Origin: Candidatus Aminicenantes bacterium RBG_13_64_14
Lineage (GTDB): Bacteria; Acidobacteriota; Aminicenantia; Aminicenantales; Saccharicenantaceae
Length of the DNA stretch: 17,957 bases
Direction of reading: 5' to 3'
Assembly: GCA_001773855.1 (NCBI GenBank)
Contig: MEXZ01000119.1
Coordinates: 401 to 18,357, forward strand
The notes beneath the pieces are model-generated. The model did no database searches. It saw only the letters and a list, made by a program, of their open reading frames with translations, and was not told the DNA's origin. Shown here piece after piece: positions 10,587 to 15,007 of this stretch; position 1 is the stretch's first letter, and each line of letters opens with the position of its first letter. A program made the translations under genes and the position numbers.

Positions 10587-11506
10587 ATAAGGATTTCCTG
10601 TCGATACGCGACCTGAGCATCTACGAATTCAGCCAGCTGCTCGACCGCGCGGCGGAAGTGAAGAAGCACCCGCACAAGTACCGCCGGGCCCTCGAACACC
10701 GGATCCTGGCCATGATCTTCCAGAAGCCCTCCTTGAGGACGCGCATGACCTTCGAAGCGGGCATGCTCCAGCTCGGCGGAGAGGCCATCTACCTCGCCCC
10801 CTCGGACATCCAAATGGGCAGCCGCGAGGGTGCCTACGACATCGGCAAGAACCTCGAGCGCTGGGTCGACGGGATCATGCTCCGGACGTTCGGACACCAG
10901 ATCGCCGTCGACCTCGCCGCCAGCACGAAGATCCCGGTCATTAACGCCTTGACCGATCTCTCCCATCCCTGCCAGGCGATGGCCGATTTCCTGACCCTGC
11001 GAGAGCACAAGGGCGCCCTGGCCAACCTCAAGCTGGCCTATGTCGGCGACGGCAACAACGTCTGCCACAGCCTGATGCTGGCCGCCGCCCGGGGCGGGAC
11101 GAAGATGGCCGTAGGGACGCCCGCCGGTTACGAGCCGAAGCCCAAAATGGTCCAGGCGGCCCGGGAGGACGGCAAGGACACCGGCTTCGCCCTGACCCTG
11201 ACGAACTCGGCCGAAGAGGCGGCCAGCGGGGCCGACGCCGTCTACACCGACGTTTGGGCGTCCATGGGCCAGGAGGCGGAAAAGGAGAAACGGGCCCGCA
11301 TCTTCGCCCCGTACCAGGTCAACGCCCGCCTCATGTCCCACGCCAAGAACGGTGCCGTCTTCATGCATTGCCTGCCGGCCCACCGCGGCGACGAGGTCAC
11401 CGACGAGGTCATCGACGCGCCGACCTCCGTCGTCTACGACCAGGCCGAGAACCGGCTCCACGCCCAAAAGGCCATCCTCCTCGCGCTGATGGGAAAAAAA
11501 GACTGA
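10583..11506 (+). CDS. Ornithine carbamoyltransferase
   Basis: This enzyme joins carbamoyl phosphate to ornithine to make citrulline, or runs in reverse during citrulline breakdown. The 307 residues include the carbamoyl phosphate loop PSLRTR (49-54, with the L variant of STRTR), LRTFGH (100-105), HPCQ (128-131), and the ornithine-side motifs DVWASMG and HCLPAHRG. HPCQ and HCLPAHRG mark it as an ornithine rather than aspartate transcarbamoylase. Overlap with arcC suggests the catabolic form (ArcB), but sequence alone does not separate this from biosynthetic ArgF, so no symbol is given. GGAGGAG lies 5 nt before the ATG. Confidence 0.94.
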   Translation: MNKDFLSIRDLSIYEFSQLLDRAAEVKKHPHKYRRALEHRILAMIFQKPSLRTRMTFEAGMLQLGGEAIYLAPSDIQMGSREGAYDIGKNLERWVDGIMLRTFGHQIAVDLAASTKIPVINALTDLSHPCQAMADFLTLREHKGALANLKLAYVGDGNNVCHSLMLAAARGGTKMAVGTPAGYEPKPKMVQAAREDGKDTGFALTLTNSAEEAASGADAVYTDVWASMGQEAEKEKRARIFAPYQVNARLMSHAKNGAVFMHCLPAHRGDEVTDEVIDAPTSVVYDQAENRLHAQKAILLALMGKKD

Positions 11507-11508
11507 AC

Positions 11509-13557
11509 ATGAACAGCGAAACGACCACCCTCACTATGGTGTCCGCCGAGGACATCGCCCTCGTCGAGCGCGAGCTCGAACAGACGCCCCAGCCTCGGTC
11601 GACGCAAGCGCTCGCCGGAAAGCTGGCCTTCGAGAAGACGGCCACGGAGCGGACGCAGGACGTCAAGAAGTACGACCCCTATTCCCACTACGATGTGGGC
11701 GACTTCATCGAAAAGGACTACAACGAGCCCCTGACCGTGGGTAGCAAGGCCGTCGAGCACTTCGAGGGCCGGGTCATCCTGAAGGTCGTCGCCAAGACGT
11801 ATTCCAAGCATTTCAACTGCGAGATGCTCGATCTCGACTACCCCGGCGGCGGCGTCTTCCGGAAATATGTCGACTACATGAAAAAGACCAGGACCCAGGT
11901 CCTGCTCCCCGCGAGCCTCGAAGGCCGGAACGAGGCCGCGGAGATCATGGCTAAGGGCGACGACCCGCGGCTGACCGAGCTGCCCATGACCGAGCGCGAC
12001 CTCAAGACGCTCGAGAAGAACCTCCGGACCGCCCTGGCCAAGAACCCCAAAGTTTTCAGCTGGAATGACTTCTGGCAGCTTTCGACAAAGCGCGTGGACA
12101 TTCTTCCCGAAAAAGTCAAAGAGATCGAGAACGAGTTCGTCGAGACCCGGCGCTCGGCCGCGACGGAAGACCTTGTCAAAAAATATTTCGGGCTGGAGGC
12201 GTCGAGCGACCTCTTCGACCTCACCTGTCTGAGCCTATCCGCCCTCCTCGAGAAGAAATTCAAGAAGGACTTCATCCTCCTGGCCGAATTCGGCTGGGGC
12301 AAGTGGCACCTCAAGTCGATCCTCAACGCCCTGCCCGAGAACCTCCCCCTGGCCGCCCCGATGGCCAAAGTTCCCGAGCTCGAGGAGGTCGAGAAGCCCG
12401 AGATGAGCATCGTCCAGGCCTTCCCGATCAAGATCTACCTCACTTGGCGCGAGATCCTTTCGGGCGGGGTCAAGGTCCCCCGCAGCTTAAACAAGGAGCT
12501 CTCCCACGCCCGGGAGTACACGTTCACGGATCCCGAGGAAGGGAAGGCCTATACGCTCTATTACTACCCGAACCAGAATTTCTTCCTGGGGCTCCAGGAT
12601 TTCTACGCCCAGTACAACGTCCCCCAAGGGACGAGCCTGACTCTCGAAAAAACCGGCCCCAACGCTTTCAAGTTCTGGATCAAGAAATCGAAGAAGAAGA
12701 TGTCCGTCGCCCGGCTGGCCTACGACGCCGAAAAGGACGAGTTCCGCAGCGCGGGCGAGGAGGTCTACACCTACGCCGAGCCCAACAAGATCATCTACAT
12801 CGAGCGCGAGACGCTGGCCCGGATCTTGGCGCTCGCGGCGACACGCGAGGGCCTCGATCTCAAGGAACTCGTCGTCCCCATCTTCAAGGACCCAGCCCTG
12901 GCCACGTCCTCGCATTCCCTCCATTTCCTGCGGGCCTACCACCTCGTCGACGTCATCCGCCAAACGAACCAGGAGGACGTGGAATTCACTCTCCTGAACT
13001 CGCCGGAATTCGCCAAGTCCGATAAGAAAAAGGGCGTCTTCACGTATCATGAGCCCTACGTCCCGAAAGAGGAGGCGCCGCTCGAGGCCGCTTTCCCCGA
13101 AACCTACGCCGAACCCGAGGCCGAAGCCATCACGCCCGAGGAAGCGGCTCTCGAAGCCGTGGCCGAAGAGCTGCGGGGAGCCGTGGCCGCCAGGGAAGAA
13201 GCCCCCCGGGAACGCCCGACGGCGCTCGCTCTCCCCCCCGAGCCCGGCGCCCCCCTGAAGAAGGAAAAGGTCTTCAAGAAAAAGAAGCTTATGTCCGAGG
13301 GGGAGAAGGGCCAGGGCCCGAAGAAAAGCGAACGCCGGGTCATCGAAGAGAAGCTCGTCGAGGAAGAATCGGTCCAGGAAGCCCTGGCCGCCGTCAAGGA
13401 AAAAGCGGAAGAAGGCCTCGAACAGCGGGCCAAGGAAAAGAAAGAGGAGTTCAAGCCGGCTCCGAAAGAGCAGCCCAAGTTCGGCATCTTCGGCGACTTG
13501 CTCAAGACCGCCCTCAAGAAAAAGGACGACAAGCCGCCCGAAGACGAGACGAAGTAG
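11509..13557 (+). CDS. 682-residue protein of unknown function with charged tail
   Basis: I do not recognise this family. The start MNSETTTLTM at 11509 is 2 nt after the preceding stop; an upstream open extension to 11254 is a shadow of the carbamoyltransferase. Residues about 60-140 look like a small beta domain (VILKVVAKTYSKHFNCEMLD, then GGGVFRKYVDYMKK). Residues about 215-280 are helical (DLVKKYFGLEASSDLFDLTC; EFGWGKWHLKSILNALPEN) and could be a winged helix. Residues about 320-415 have a beta pattern (LSGGVKVPRSLNKEL, KAYTLYYYPNQNFFLGLQDF, GTSLTLEKTG) reminiscent of B3/AbrB-like nucleic-acid-binding barrels, which is inference only. From about residue 510 the protein is a long acidic then lysine-rich tail, probably disordered. 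No signal peptide or membrane segment. Its weak ribosome site suggests coupling to the operon. Confidence 0.85.
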   Translation: MNSETTTLTMVSAEDIALVERELEQTPQPRSTQALAGKLAFEKTATERTQDVKKYDPYSHYDVGDFIEKDYNEPLTVGSKAVEHFEGRVILKVVAKTYSKHFNCEMLDLDYPGGGVFRKYVDYMKKTRTQVLLPASLEGRNEAAEIMAKGDDPRLTELPMTERDLKTLEKNLRTALAKNPKVFSWNDFWQLSTKRVDILPEKVKEIENEFVETRRSAATEDLVKKYFGLEASSDLFDLTCLSLSALLEKKFKKDFILLAEFGWGKWHLKSILNALPENLPLAAPMAKVPELEEVEKPEMSIVQAFPIKIYLTWREILSGGVKVPRSLNKELSHAREYTFTDPEEGKAYTLYYYPNQNFFLGLQDFYAQYNVPQGTSLTLEKTGPNAFKFWIKKSKKKMSVARLAYDAEKDEFRSAGEEVYTYAEPNKIIYIERETLARILALAATREGLDLKELVVPIFKDPALATSSHSLHFLRAYHLVDVIRQTNQEDVEFTLLNSPEFAKSDKKKGVFTYHEPYVPKEEAPLEAAFPETYAEPEAEAITPEEAALEAVAEELRGAVAAREEAPRERPTALALPPEPGAPLKKEKVFKKKKLMSEGEKGQGPKKSERRVIEEKLVEEESVQEALAAVKEKAEEGLEQRAKEKKEEFKPAPKEQPKFGIFGDLLKTALKKKDDKPPEDETK

Positions 13558-13605
13558 CTAAAGGATATCCCGCACAGAGCCCTTGCGGCGCGTAACCCCC
13601 ATACT
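13558..13605 (-). pseudogene. SelB-like C-terminal tail, copy 3 (detached)
   Basis: Reads SMGVTRRKGSVRDIL then TAG. It is identical in amino acids to copy 1 and one residue away (K to R) from the end of the intact SelB-like gene. Its codons are GC-rich (CGC, GGC, ATC), like the chromosome. Its stop codon abuts the stop of the convergent 682-residue gene (13555-13557) with no gap. This suggests it is the original end of the SelB-like gene, left behind when newer ends were placed upstream. Confidence 0.85.
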
Positions 13606-13642
13606 GCCCTAATCCTCGCCAACGGACGAGGATTAGGACTGC
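13604..13642 (-). repeat. 39-nt GCAG-bounded palindrome, module h4
   Basis: In the minus direction GCAG, arm TCCTAATCCTC, loop, arm GAGGATTAGG, GCAG. With the flanks the pairing extends outwards through CCCCAT/ATGGGG, giving about 21 positions with one mismatch and two G-U pairs in minus-strand RNA. It lies 7 nt (ATGGGGA on plus) after the stop of tail copy 2 and runs straight into tail copy 3. No U-run follows. Confidence 0.85.
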
Positions 13643-13649
13643 ATGGGGA

Positions 13650-13724
13650 TCAAAGCATGTCTCTTTCAGAACCTTTTCGTCTCGTTATCCCCATGCTGTC
13701 TAGCAGTTCGAGGAGAGGGATGCT
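13650..13724 (-). pseudogene. SelB-like C-terminal tail, copy 2 (detached)
   Basis: Reads SIPLLELLDSMG, then ITRRKGSERDML and TGA. It matches the last 25 codons (with stop) of the intact gene at 68 of 75 nt; the first 11 codons are identical. Changes are V to I, K to R, V to E and I to M, plus one silent change, so here most differences alter protein. It is preceded directly by palindrome h3 and has no gene body in front of it. Confidence 0.88.
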
Positions 13725-13761
13725 GCCCTCATCCTCATGAAAACATGAGGATGAGGACTGC
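13723..13761 (-). repeat. 39-nt GCAG-bounded palindrome, module h3
   Basis: Minus direction: GCAG, then a perfect 13-bp inverted repeat CCTCATCCTCATG / CATGAGGATGAGG around TTTT, then GCAG. It has the same length and ends as h1 and h4 with an A-to-C variant core. Its final GCAG merges into the first codon (AGC) of tail copy 2. Confidence 0.85.
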
Positions 13762-13765
13762 TTCG

Positions 13766-13801
13766 CTGCCCTTCTTTTCATTAGACGAGGATTAGGACTG
13801 C
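13766..13801 (-). repeat. 36-nt GCAG-bounded half-palindrome, module h2
   Basis: Minus direction: GCAG and the left arm TCCTAATCCTCGTC are intact and end in GGGCAG as in h4, but the right arm has been replaced. The replacement can be read as EKKGSEA, loosely like the KGSE of tail copy 2, which may be a fifth fragment; that match is weak. It is separated from h3 by only 4 nt. Confidence 0.65.
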
Positions 13802-13836
13802 ATCCCATCCGGAACAAAACTCATGCGACCGACGTG
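13792..13836 (-). pseudogene. Fragment resembling the RNase R C-terminus
   Basis: One minus frame reads HVGRMSFVPDGMQS and stops at TAA inside module h2. RMSFVP is shared with the end of the intact rnr (15034-15051). The 18 nt match at 15 positions, and all three differences are silent third positions. Homology outside these six codons is not evident, so chance is not excluded, but rnr is the gene directly upstream of the SelB-like gene whose tails surround this fragment. Confidence 0.5.
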
Positions 13837-13838
13837 TA

Positions 13839-13889
13839 TTAAAGAATATCCCGGACTGAACCCTTCCTACGGGTCACTCCCATACTATC
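13839..13889 (-). pseudogene. SelB-like C-terminal tail, copy 1 (detached)
   Basis: Reads DSMGVTRRKGSVRDIL then TAA. Compared with copy 3 over 15 sense codons, nine codons differ and every difference is silent; the stop differs too (TAA against TAG). It follows palindrome h1 directly, with h1's right end (GGATAG) forming the first codons. It has no start codon or gene body. Confidence 0.88.
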
Positions 13890-13923
13890 CTAATCCTCAT
13901 TAAGAAATGAGGCTTAGGACTGC
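13885..13923 (-). repeat. 39-nt GCAG-bounded palindrome, module h1
   Basis: Minus direction: GCAG, arm TCCTAAGCCTCATT, loop TCTT, arm AATGAGGATTAGGA, then TAG where the other modules have CAG. One T-to-G change in the left arm breaks a pair. It begins 7 nt after the stop codon of the intact SelB-like gene, the same spacing seen between tail copy 2 and h4. Confidence 0.85.
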
Positions 13924-13930
13924 ATGGGGA

Positions 13931-15007
13931 TCAAAGTATGTCTCTCACAGAACCTTTTCGTTTCGTCACGCCCATGCTGTCTAGCAGTTCGAGGAGAGGG
14001 ATGCTGTACTTTCGCGACAGGCCGGTTATCACCTTGAAATCGGCGACGGTCAATTCCCGCTTCCCTGATTCCCGGATCTTGCGGACGATCTCGTCGAGCC
14101 AGCGGGAATGGAGGATGAACCCGTCCAGGCCCTCGACGATCTTCTTCCGCTCGGCGAGGACGGCGAGGAGCGTATGAAGCTTCCCCTGGGTGAGCTTGAA
14201 TTCGGCCTGGATGTCGTCCAGGGTTACGCTCCCGAGCTGGCCGCTGAGGACCATCCGTTCGAGCGCGGCCAAGGTCTCTTCGTCTGCGGCCGTGAGGGGG
14301 ATCCGGAAATCGGGAAGCCGGACGATCCCCCCCTCCTCGATGATCCGCACCTCCTTGGCTAGCAGCCGGAGGGCCAGGACGAGGACCGTCCGAGGGGCGT
14401 CGAAGCGCTTCTCGAGCTTCTCGAGGGGGGCTCCTCTCTGGGAGGGGTGTTTCTTGTGGTACTGGGTAACGAAGGAAACGACCCGGCCGCGGAGAAAATC
14501 CAGGGTGCCCTGGGAGACGAGGAACAGGGGCGAAAACGCGAGGATGCGGGCCTTCCCTTCCTCTTCGAGGAGGTGAGCCAGGGCCTCGACGCGGGACCTA
14601 GGCAGGCGGCAGAAAACGTCGAGGTTCTCACCCTTCAGCCCTTTCAGGCCTCCCGCCTCCGCGAGGGCCAGGATCATTTCTTTTTCCCCGAGCGAGAGCC
14701 GCGTCAGGAGGGCCTTTCGCCTCGAAAGCTTGAGCTCGTCGGGCGACGGCGAGCCCGGATAAAGACAGGTGCCGCACCCGAGGCTGTCGCCGGCCGCCGT
14801 CCGGACTTCGAACGGGTCCCCCCACTTGACGTCGACGGGACCGACGGCCAGGGCCCGGACGAACGGGGCGCCCTTCCGGCCGGGGACCGGATACTCGGTG
14901 AAACGGGCGGCGACGGCGCCGTCGAGGAAGACGGCCTCGGCCGGCGCGTCTTGACCGAGTTTCCCCAGCGGGAAATCGAGGACGGCGTCGAATGCGGGCG
15001 CTTTCAT
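13931..15007 (-). CDS. SelB-like protein without a GTPase domain
   Basis: SelB is the elongation factor that delivers selenocysteyl-tRNA and uses C-terminal winged helices to hold the SECIS RNA hairpin. This 358-residue protein matches only the later part. Residues about 20-85 resemble the end of the EF-Tu-like barrel (GDPFEVRTAAGDSLGCGTCL). Winged-helix repeats follow, ending in the SelB signature KRELTVADFKVITGLSRKYS and the tail SMGVTKRKGSVRDIL. G domain and domain 2, with all GTP motifs, are absent. The gene is not cut off by the window: its ATG overlaps the rnr stop by 4 nt, so it is a stable short gene. It may be a repurposed RNA- or DNA-binding protein. The last 24 codons use CTA, CGA, AGA and ATA more than the body and may be imported. 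Confidence 0.85.
   Translation of the reverse strand: MKAPAFDAVLDFPLGKLGQDAPAEAVFLDGAVAARFTEYPVPGRKGAPFVRALAVGPVDVKWGDPFEVRTAAGDSLGCGTCLYPGSPSPDELKLSRRKALLTRLSLGEKEMILALAEAGGLKGLKGENLDVFCRLPRSRVEALAHLLEEEGKARILAFSPLFLVSQGTLDFLRGRVVSFVTQYHKKHPSQRGAPLEKLEKRFDAPRTVLVLALRLLAKEVRIIEEGGIVRLPDFRIPLTAADEETLAALERMVLSGQLGSVTLDDIQAEFKLTQGKLHTLLAVLAERKKIVEGLDGFILHSRWLDEIVRKIRESGKRELTVADFKVITGLSRKYSIPLLELLDSMGVTKRKGSVRDIL

Follow-up and report, generated by a model that had tools for sequence, protein, structure and literature searches.

The window analysed here, a stretch of 17,957 nucleotides (nt) from contig MEXZ01000119.1 of Candidatus Aminicenantes bacterium RBG_13_64_14, carries an array of four copies of a 45-nt gene tail at the 3' end of a gene resembling the C-terminal part of SelB (the SelB-C-like gene), three of the copies being detached and set apart by hairpins. 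We propose, with a probability of about 0.5, that the array consists of tiny mobile cassettes piled one behind another, inserted in a hairpin-dependent manner at two fixed sites at the gene's 3' end. The part held most firmly is the serial insertion of imported tail cassettes, which we regard as probable; granted such insertion, a single-strand mechanism using the hairpin and a short guide sequence is somewhat favoured. Gene ends have been displaced one after another, arrays differ in size between relatives, the working tails look foreign, the junctions are fixed, and the modules combine a hairpin with guide complementarity. The source genome, G000, is a 1.79-Mb draft, 71% complete.

The tail runs from an ATG to the stop, i.e., it comprises the last 14 codons plus the stop, and all four copies lie on the gene's strand. 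The three detached ones occupy the space between the gene's end at 13931 and the stop of a convergent neighbour at 13557:

13931 to 15007, minus strand: SelB-C-like gene, 358 amino acids, 3' end replaced, recognised from Pfam domains and genome matches
13931 to 13975, minus strand: tail 1, the working C-terminal tail inside the gene, B type, peptide MGVTKRKGSVRDIL, stop TGA, 44% G+C
13839 to 13883, minus strand: tail 2, displaced, A type, peptide MGVTRRKGSVRDIL, stop TAA, 49% G+C, from sequence comparison
13650 to 13722, minus strand: displaced segment with tail 3 (13650 to 13694, B type, peptide MGITRRKGSERDML, stop TGA, 42% G+C) and a 27-nt pre-tail
13558 to 13602, minus strand: tail 4, outermost, peptide MGVTRRKGSVRDIL, stop TAG, 60% G+C, no hairpin behind it

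The copy at tail 3 extends into the preceding SIPLLELLDS segment, to 13724, and its pre-tail is identical to the gene's own (27/27). An automatic repeat search returned a 167-nt direct repeat (84%, 281-nt spacing) together with a four-copy 20-nt family. Tails 1-3 are AT-rich (42-49% G+C), compared with a mean of 66% and a minimum of 51% for windows of the gene; tail 4 is native-looking in both G+C (60%) and sequence, and is taken to be the original gene end. Some detached tails have decayed (tail 3 of G000 and both of those on contig C266 of genome G012, hereafter G012:C266), and the others are intact at the protein level.

The locus was compared in 13 genomes of the genus, the source genome included, with one genome per species. 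G000 has four tails, G005 three and G004 two; a decayed array is found in G012:C266 and a remnant in G003, and a single tail stands at eight loci (G002, G006, G007, G008, G009, G010, G011, and G012:C271), the G001 locus being cut by a contig end. An assembly artefact was rejected, as arrays are also present in the separate assemblies G004 and G005. The outermost tail of G005, with its leader and left hairpin arm, matches the working module of G004 at 100 of 103 bases, and a working end was therefore displaced: the end that works in G004 is the discarded end in its sister G005. This outermost G005 module breaks off inside its hairpin, with a broken arm behind the last tail, and the original gene end is no longer visible there; the last tails of G000 and G004 are not followed by a hairpin. 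The two gene copies of G012 are 95% identical over 363 nt upstream and share, by eye, their downstream flank, one being single-tailed and the other filled; the C266 copy perhaps belongs to another strain in the bin. In none of the five arrays or remnants is a displaced tail more than a few hundred bases away from the gene, which leaves no room for cargo. A tail-peptide search of 94 genomes of the order, which gave some match at E 1 in 89 of them and missed the G003 remnant, listed detached tails beside the gene in this genus only. Shared intergenic repeat pieces, GAGGCGGCGATGGATGTCGCCCCGAAG and TTCCAGATATTTCGCAGAAG, occur with varying parts just past the tails in G004:C15, G012:C271, G012:C266, and G005:C85.

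Upstream of the tails, G000, G004, and G005 are about 92-95% identical. In the three pairs formed by these genomes, identity drops at ACAG/CATCCC (the slash marks the junction), from 53-57 of 60 positions before it to 30 of 36 over KYSIPLLELLDS and 30-32 of 45 in the tail. Of 45 positions, the working tails have 32 (G000/G004), 32 (G000/G005), 30 (G004/G005), and 33 (G012/G012:C266) in common, and every upstream 45-nt window of these pairs scores better (318 windows, or 103 for the G012 pair; minima 35, 35, 38, and 38, respectively). Among ten other pairs, the tails fall at 0.6% of windows for G000/G011, 6.3% for G005/G011, and 21.7% for G004/G011, and at 26-98% for the six pairs that remain when G003/G002, discussed below, is set aside, these six being without a complete array. 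Tail 1 is nearest to tail 2 of G005 (41/45), then to tail 3 of its own array (38/45), i.e., B to B, and tail 4 is nearest to the tails of G011, G010, G007, and G006 (38/45), all of which are without a module. The pairwise mismatch of the tails and the AT-rich composition of tails 1-3 therefore indicate that new ends came from elsewhere. The pre-tails of G005 agree at 19 of 27 positions, the level of difference expected under clean insertion of an unrelated module A. The sequence-only reading had proposed repeated replacement of the gene's 3' end, with the old end pushed outward, and this has good support in the differing array sizes, the 100/103 match between G005 and G004, the sharp break at the working tail and the AT-rich tails 1-3; alignment across relatives gave varying tail numbers and single-tail loci, and not the same four-tail array throughout.

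Two types of module, A and B, alternate in the array. Type B is composed, in order, of CATGGG and the tail, TGA, a short leader ending in CCCATG, CAG, and a 35-nt hairpin; type A starts with CATCCC and continues with the pre-tail and tail, TAA, a leader of 40 or 41 nt that closes with the guide plus CAG, and one or two hairpins. Their parts in the window are:

14003 to 14004, minus strand: junction site 1, ACAG/CATCCC in the gene, for A-type modules; identity between congeners drops from here
13976 to 13977, minus strand: junction site 2, ACAG/CATGGG in the gene, for B-type modules, from the sequence
13923 to 13928, minus strand: guide of module B1, CCCATG, exact reverse complement of the module start CATGGG
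13885 to 13919, minus strand: hairpin unit of module B1, TCC...GGATAG, 35 nt, with GCAG before it; fold with outer arms z -6.3
13798 to 13838, minus strand: leader of module A, 41 nt, with guide GGGATG (13801 to 13806) and CAG; 34 of 41 bases common with G004, and likewise with G005
13766 to 13797, minus strand: first hairpin unit of module A, a decayed palindrome, from sequence and fold
13758 to 13765, minus strand: linker CGAAGCAG joining the tandem hairpins, identical in G005
13723 to 13757, minus strand: second hairpin unit of module A, 35 nt, ending in GGGCAG, from fold and pattern scan
13642 to 13647, minus strand: guide of module B2, CCCATG, from complementarity
13604 to 13638, minus strand: hairpin unit of module B2, 35 nt, ending in GGGCAG; fold with outer arms z -7.6

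The three detached tails with stops of their own, which had been read from the sequence at 13839 (TAA), 13650 (TGA), and 13558 (TAG), are thus all present on the gene's strand. The four GCAG-bounded palindromes described with them do correspond to four hairpins, of which the one behind the gene ends in ATAG, and they occupy three places, two of them standing in tandem; the regular spacing (tail stop, 7 nt, palindrome, next tail) holds in two of the three intervals, the stop at 13839 being followed by the 41-nt leader and the tandem hairpins. Leaders of type A from G000, G004, and G005 agree pairwise at 34-39 of 41 positions. The module start is preceded by ACAG in seven of the eight modules compared, and the only (A/G)CAG(C/T)AT sites in the 1077-nt gene are ACAG/CATCCC and ACAG/CATGGG.

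In seven of the eight modules, the six bases that precede the CAG of the hairpin foot, referred to as the guide, match perfectly the reverse complement of the six with which the module itself begins, and this is true of G012:C266 despite the loss of its hairpin. Each of the three start types (CATCCC, CATGGG, and TATCCC) has its matching guide, i.e., the two covary between module types; in module A of G005, a T for C in the start is paired with an A for G in the guide, relative to the other A modules. Complementarity of the guide to the displaced side is 6/6 in two modules and 4-5/6 in six. The guide pairs with the first six bases of the module, unlike that of IS608, which pairs with the left flank, and we take the match as probable pairing within the module, as expected if the module closes on itself.

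Seven hairpins from G000, G004, G005, and G003, taken together with their outer arms (53-98 nt), were folded along with 200 shuffles of each, and for six of them none of the 200 shuffles folds as well (z -3.8 to -9.7). The hairpin units of 35 nt fall within the size range of repetitive extragenic palindromic (REP) sequences (20-50 nt); the tetranucleotide at the foot is GCAG in six of the seven aligned hairpins and ACAG in one, and not the GTAG or CGTC of REP sequences. In the alignment of the seven, 7 of 22 pairs change on both sides, the closing pair being C-G, G-C, A-T, or T-A. The percentage paired, the cells changed on both sides, and the covariation score were each reached by none of 500 shuffles, a count that is no probability; three rows (both hairpins of module A in G005 and the second of module A in G000) take one outer arm from the neighbouring hairpin.

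Chance was addressed in 945 kb of G000, G004, and G005, where each of 5388 stop-to-stop frames (80 codons or longer) was checked for a copy of its own C-terminus up to 600 nt downstream. The SelB-C-like locus scores 65-68 in all three genomes, and other scores above 36 belong to opposite-strand or overlapping frames of the same arrays, plus one scaffold gap flanked by duplicated sequence. In the latter (L180; G005:C85, near 96.6 kb), a gap of N with duplicated flanks mimics a duplicated tail and is an assembly artefact. A first shuffled control, with C-termini dealt across the three related genomes, reached up to 78, and 12 of 26665 scores were 50 or higher; these high scores are suspected to stem from orthologous frames. 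When C-termini were dealt within a genome, from another stretch, the maximum was 44 and none of 26665 scores reached 45. No other gene with detached tails was found in the 945 kb, nor in 249 kb of hairpin-rich stretches that partly overlap them (about 1.19 Mb in total), where the SelB-C-like locus and a tandem hairpin repeat in L289 gave the sole scores above 34. The array as an instance of a general phenomenon was consequently rejected, with no second tail-bearing gene in the scanned stretches, and the idea that tails of other genes might lie beside the module found no example there.

Hairpins of this kind are not confined to the array. A covariance model finds the array hairpins strongly and has a match at E 0.5 in 13 of the 94 genomes, those outside array bearers mainly in G056, G034, G046, and G093. 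The pattern GCAGTCCT...AGGGCAG has 62 matches in the 94 genomes versus 36 for a reversed control, so that much of the signal is background; the excess is seen in G054, a member of another genus (25 versus 1), G052 (6 versus 1), and G056 (6 versus 3), plus the array bearers. G000, G004, and G005 have three exact-pattern matches apiece, of which all three fall within the array in G000 and a single one does so in G004 and in G005, and the many dispersed host copies typical of REP sequences are not seen in array bearers. A scan for short CAG-bounded hairpins in 949 kb gave 12 matches, five of them the arrays, compared with 4-26 for eight other motifs and 12 for the reversed one; short CAG hairpins are not enriched in these 949 kb. 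Hairpins outside the array occur alone, in tandem, or within larger repeats. In G054 (L301-L315), G056, G052, G046, and G034, GCAGTCC...GGGC(A/G)G palindromes are dispersed, often in larger repeats or at contig ends, and look like a REP-like family, or one resembling miniature inverted-repeat transposable elements, of the order; the array hairpin resembles these scattered GCAG-footed palindromes. Tandem 53-nt GCAG hairpin units without tails lie just past a gene stop in L289 (G046:C93, about 1350-1660 of the reversed locus), and differing CAG-bounded hairpin units lie behind a gene at a contig end in L278 (G005:C21, last 350 bases of the reversed locus).

The host gene is matched in all 60 genomes searched, its own included, the G034 match being to a longer SelB-like frame only; such a longer SelB-like reading frame is additionally present in several genomes. 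Its product matches the two C-terminal winged-helix domains of SelB in Pfam (SelB-wing_3, 2.7e-15; SelB-wing_2, 1.9e-6) and no GTPase domain was found in it by Pfam, so the earlier label of a SelB-like gene applies only to its C-terminal domains. A gene resembling that of RNase R adjoins it. The gene on the other side of the array is:

11506 to 13557, plus strand: convergent neighbour, 683 amino acids, no Pfam match, its end adjoining tail 4

A 682-amino-acid homologue of this neighbour lies downstream in G004 and G005 as well.

Enzymes that might act on the modules were sought in the 13 genomes. Y1 transposase matches are found in ten of them; of the 34 Y1 loci whose flanks (up to 1.5 kb) were fetched, two have a GCAG hairpin nearby, both in G046 and one of these hairpins inside another reading frame, and the palindromes that accompany Y1 genes in the genus differ from it in sequence. 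Two such Y1 genes (L222 and L219, in G004 and G009) stand with two copies of a long palindrome, also of other sequence. Tyrosine recombinases (PF00589) have 1 to 11 matches in each of the 13 genomes, probably with XerC and XerD among them, and remain candidate enzymes; G004 has two full-length matches plus a fragment. PF00589 is absent from the array contig in G000, G004, and G012:C266, and its nearest match is more than 40 kb away in G005 and G003, serine recombinases not having been searched for. One article describes TnpA-REP enzymes as recognising a palindrome together with the tetranucleotide at its foot and cutting close by, and one of them barely cleaves a GCAG substrate (PMC8266576). 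The main text of a paper on GTAG- and CGTC-tagged repeats contains no word beginning with GCAG (PMC3733652). No description of palindromes bearing gene tails was found in open-access full texts, judged by titles and the starts of abstracts.

How the proposed cassettes might work can be outlined as follows. A cassette would begin with CATCCC, TATCCC, or CATGGG as its six start bases, followed by the remainder of the coding tail with its stop, a short leader, the guide, CAG, and one hairpin of about 35 nt, or sometimes two, with a CAG or TAG end. It would land just 3' of CAG, in the SIP or SMG codons, and supply a synonymous C-terminus, so that the gene would stay whole and the old end would lie dead behind the hairpin. 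A putative trans-acting enzyme would read the folded hairpin and its foot in single-stranded DNA and cut after CAG, the guide choosing the cut, and the cassette would have moved between cells or chromosomes, perhaps as a single-stranded circle, in the manner of IS608, of REP transposase substrates, or of integron cassettes. Single-strand, hairpin-dependent transfer is suggested because of the short fixed target CAG, the hairpin with its conserved foot, and the adjacent guide bases. More tentatively, the modules could represent a kind of mobile DNA that has no genes, measures about 90-190 bp, and homes to a single chromosomal gene, with a hairpin, a guide setting both ends and target, a harmless synonymous tail, and an enzyme acting in trans on folded single-stranded DNA.

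Several observations weigh against the proposal of mobile cassettes. The tail cargo rests on one gene, and the hairpins elsewhere are without gene tails in the 249 kb scanned. The gene's pre-tail and the displaced one are identical at 27 of 27 positions in G000 and at 26 of 27 in G004, which is unexpected for independent import, and the two tails of G004 are close (41/45); conversion or local copying must be invoked, gene conversion between copies being the simplest patch for the pre-tail identity. The G003/G002 tails, at 8.8% of windows, are no significant outlier. The G003 module also departs in its guide complementarity (4/6) and in its hairpin, as well as which 31 of 200 shuffles fold (z -1.0), and in G012:C266 the hairpin is lost and the start is preceded by GCG; the left start of module A in G000 is placed by inference, a later module now being inserted there. 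The rows of the hairpin alignment are few and related, and its pairs changed on both sides (reached by 114 of 500 shuffles) and pair types (71 of 500) are not unusual. No enzyme is tied to the modules: Y1 matches are absent from G005 (96% complete), G000 (71%), and G006 (73%), and integron integrase (TIGR02249) is over the cut-off in none of the 13 genomes, some of which are incomplete. Viral contigs, phages, and plasmids gave no convincing donor or free form, with one match at E 5.

An unlikely alternative is that the array consists of scars of ordinary integrative elements, such as a phage, plasmid, or island whose integrase uses the gene's 3' end as attachment site; under that account, an attP-borne tail and a hairpin end would have stayed behind after cargo deletion, e.g., between two flanking hairpins. 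Tail replacement, displacement, and AT-rich foreign tails are the leftovers to be expected from it, the tandem hairpins, whose short linker is the same in G000 and G005, may be ends that became fused, and the tyrosine recombinase matches in every genome mean that such elements may exist in the genus. On the other hand, cargo could not fit between the gene and its displaced tail at any of the five arrays or remnants, G004 has only its two full-length recombinase matches and the fragment, and a common short module plan recurs in three species. The modules may still be remnants of larger elements; independent loss of cargo is disfavoured because several species have them in the same compact layout. 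When viral contigs were scanned with patterns, three scans for the tail or the leader returned nothing, and a fourth, for the hairpin foot, yielded 42 stretches that lack the hairpin, with a best arm match of 5-8 of 10, and were rejected. The likeness to integrase-driven elements drawn in the sequence-only reading accordingly fares poorly, given the missing cargo room and the absence of PF00589 from the contig or its distance from the array (serine recombinases, as noted, lay outside the search), and the large cargo that relatives might have carried between tails is seen at none of the five sites. Its other suggestion, hairpin-guided template switching, survives in part: the self-complementary guide and the covarying hairpin agree with a role for the hairpin, and plain local switching is disfavoured, since a new tail in most cases does not copy the one beside it.

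It is quite unlikely that a GCAG hairpin of REP-like kind entered the intergenic space once, after which unequal crossing-over between alleles from different strains, transformation, gene conversion, and template switches caused by the hairpins made and shuffled the tandem tails. The pre-tail identity points to copying or conversion in the array, hairpin clusters without tails are present in G046 and G005, and hairpins alone are spread through the order; such a history nevertheless leaves the guide complementarity unexplained, and it is at odds with the CAG/YATSSS junctions in seven of eight modules and with new tails that are mostly far from vertical expectation. Simple tandem duplication cannot yield an array whose last tail has no hairpin, as in G000 and G004, and duplication of tail plus hairpin as the sole cause was rejected on this ground and since most tails are too different. 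A tail-switching locus, in which reserve tails would be recombined into the gene as in a shufflon, fits the several detached tails that are intact at the protein level and separated by palindromes, but all stand in one orientation and encode nearly the same peptide, from which little change is expected, some are decaying, and the G000 contig has no PF00589 match; we consider it very improbable. Least credible of all is that the palindromes are ordinary intergenic terminators between convergent genes, with tails as chance or decoration: the genes are indeed convergent and the hairpins strong, but a terminator scan placed no terminator-like site at the hairpins, its single site lying elsewhere and at shuffle level, and the tails are far beyond chance.

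The proposed cassettes can be set beside several known systems. With REP sequences and their associated tyrosine transposases (RAYTs), they share a short palindrome whose 5' foot bears a conserved tetranucleotide, and Y1 proteins are present in ten of the 13 genomes, but the foot is GCAG instead of GTAG or CGTC, the module carries a gene tail, and GCAG hairpins are near only 2 of the 34 Y1 loci looked at. IS608, of the IS200/IS605 family, inserts 3' of a short fixed sequence, a further likeness to the array modules. In one study, its target is chosen through pairing of guide bases in the transposon end, and guide bases beside a hairpin pair with the cleavage or target site (PMC5934647), as may be the case here. 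The array module differs from it by having one hairpin place, where IS200/IS605 elements have hairpins at both ends, by pairing with its own first bases, by the lack of a transposase inside, and by its gene-tail cargo. In integrons, as in the array, the outer hairpin arm is completed by the start of the next or same cassette, and the newest cassette is nearest the fixed site; the R box of attC ends in AAC or starts with GTT. Integron cassettes likewise join a coding piece to a folded hairpin (for the attC structure, see PMC2727003), but no integrase is over the cut-off in the 13 genomes, the module ends are CAG and YATSSS instead of R and L boxes, and the coding piece is a tail and not a gene. 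The array thus resembles REP/IS608 elements and integron cassettes but lacks a defining feature of each.

Among integrative elements at gene ends, such as SCC (staphylococcal cassette chromosome) at rlmH and islands at guaA and tRNA genes, a synonymous gene end replaces the old one, which is displaced, and elements accrete in tandem. The array shares the new synonymous end, the displaced old one, and the tandem accretion, but no cargo or integrase is seen (with the same limit as to serine recombinases), the modules measure only about 90-190 bp, and each intact one has a hairpin. The shufflon of plasmid R64 contains several C-terminal segments separated by recombination sites; the array, in contrast, has one orientation, not the two of a shufflon, nearly synonymous tails in place of differing C-termini, and no PF00589 on the G000 contig. 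Rickettsia palindromic elements are small palindromes that enter coding sequence and add residues in frame, whereas array modules swap the gene end and leave the protein nearly unchanged. These elements are named in PMC3733652.

The locus makes serial gene-end replacement readable from closely related species, in units of such small size that a hairpin and a few bases would have to contain the information for choosing a site. Were the guide reading true, nature would here offer an insertion system that finds its target by pairing. Selfish DNA that brings along a synonymous end could sit harmlessly in a conserved gene. The Aminicenantes also present a family of GCAG-footed palindromes that was not met in the open-access literature searched.

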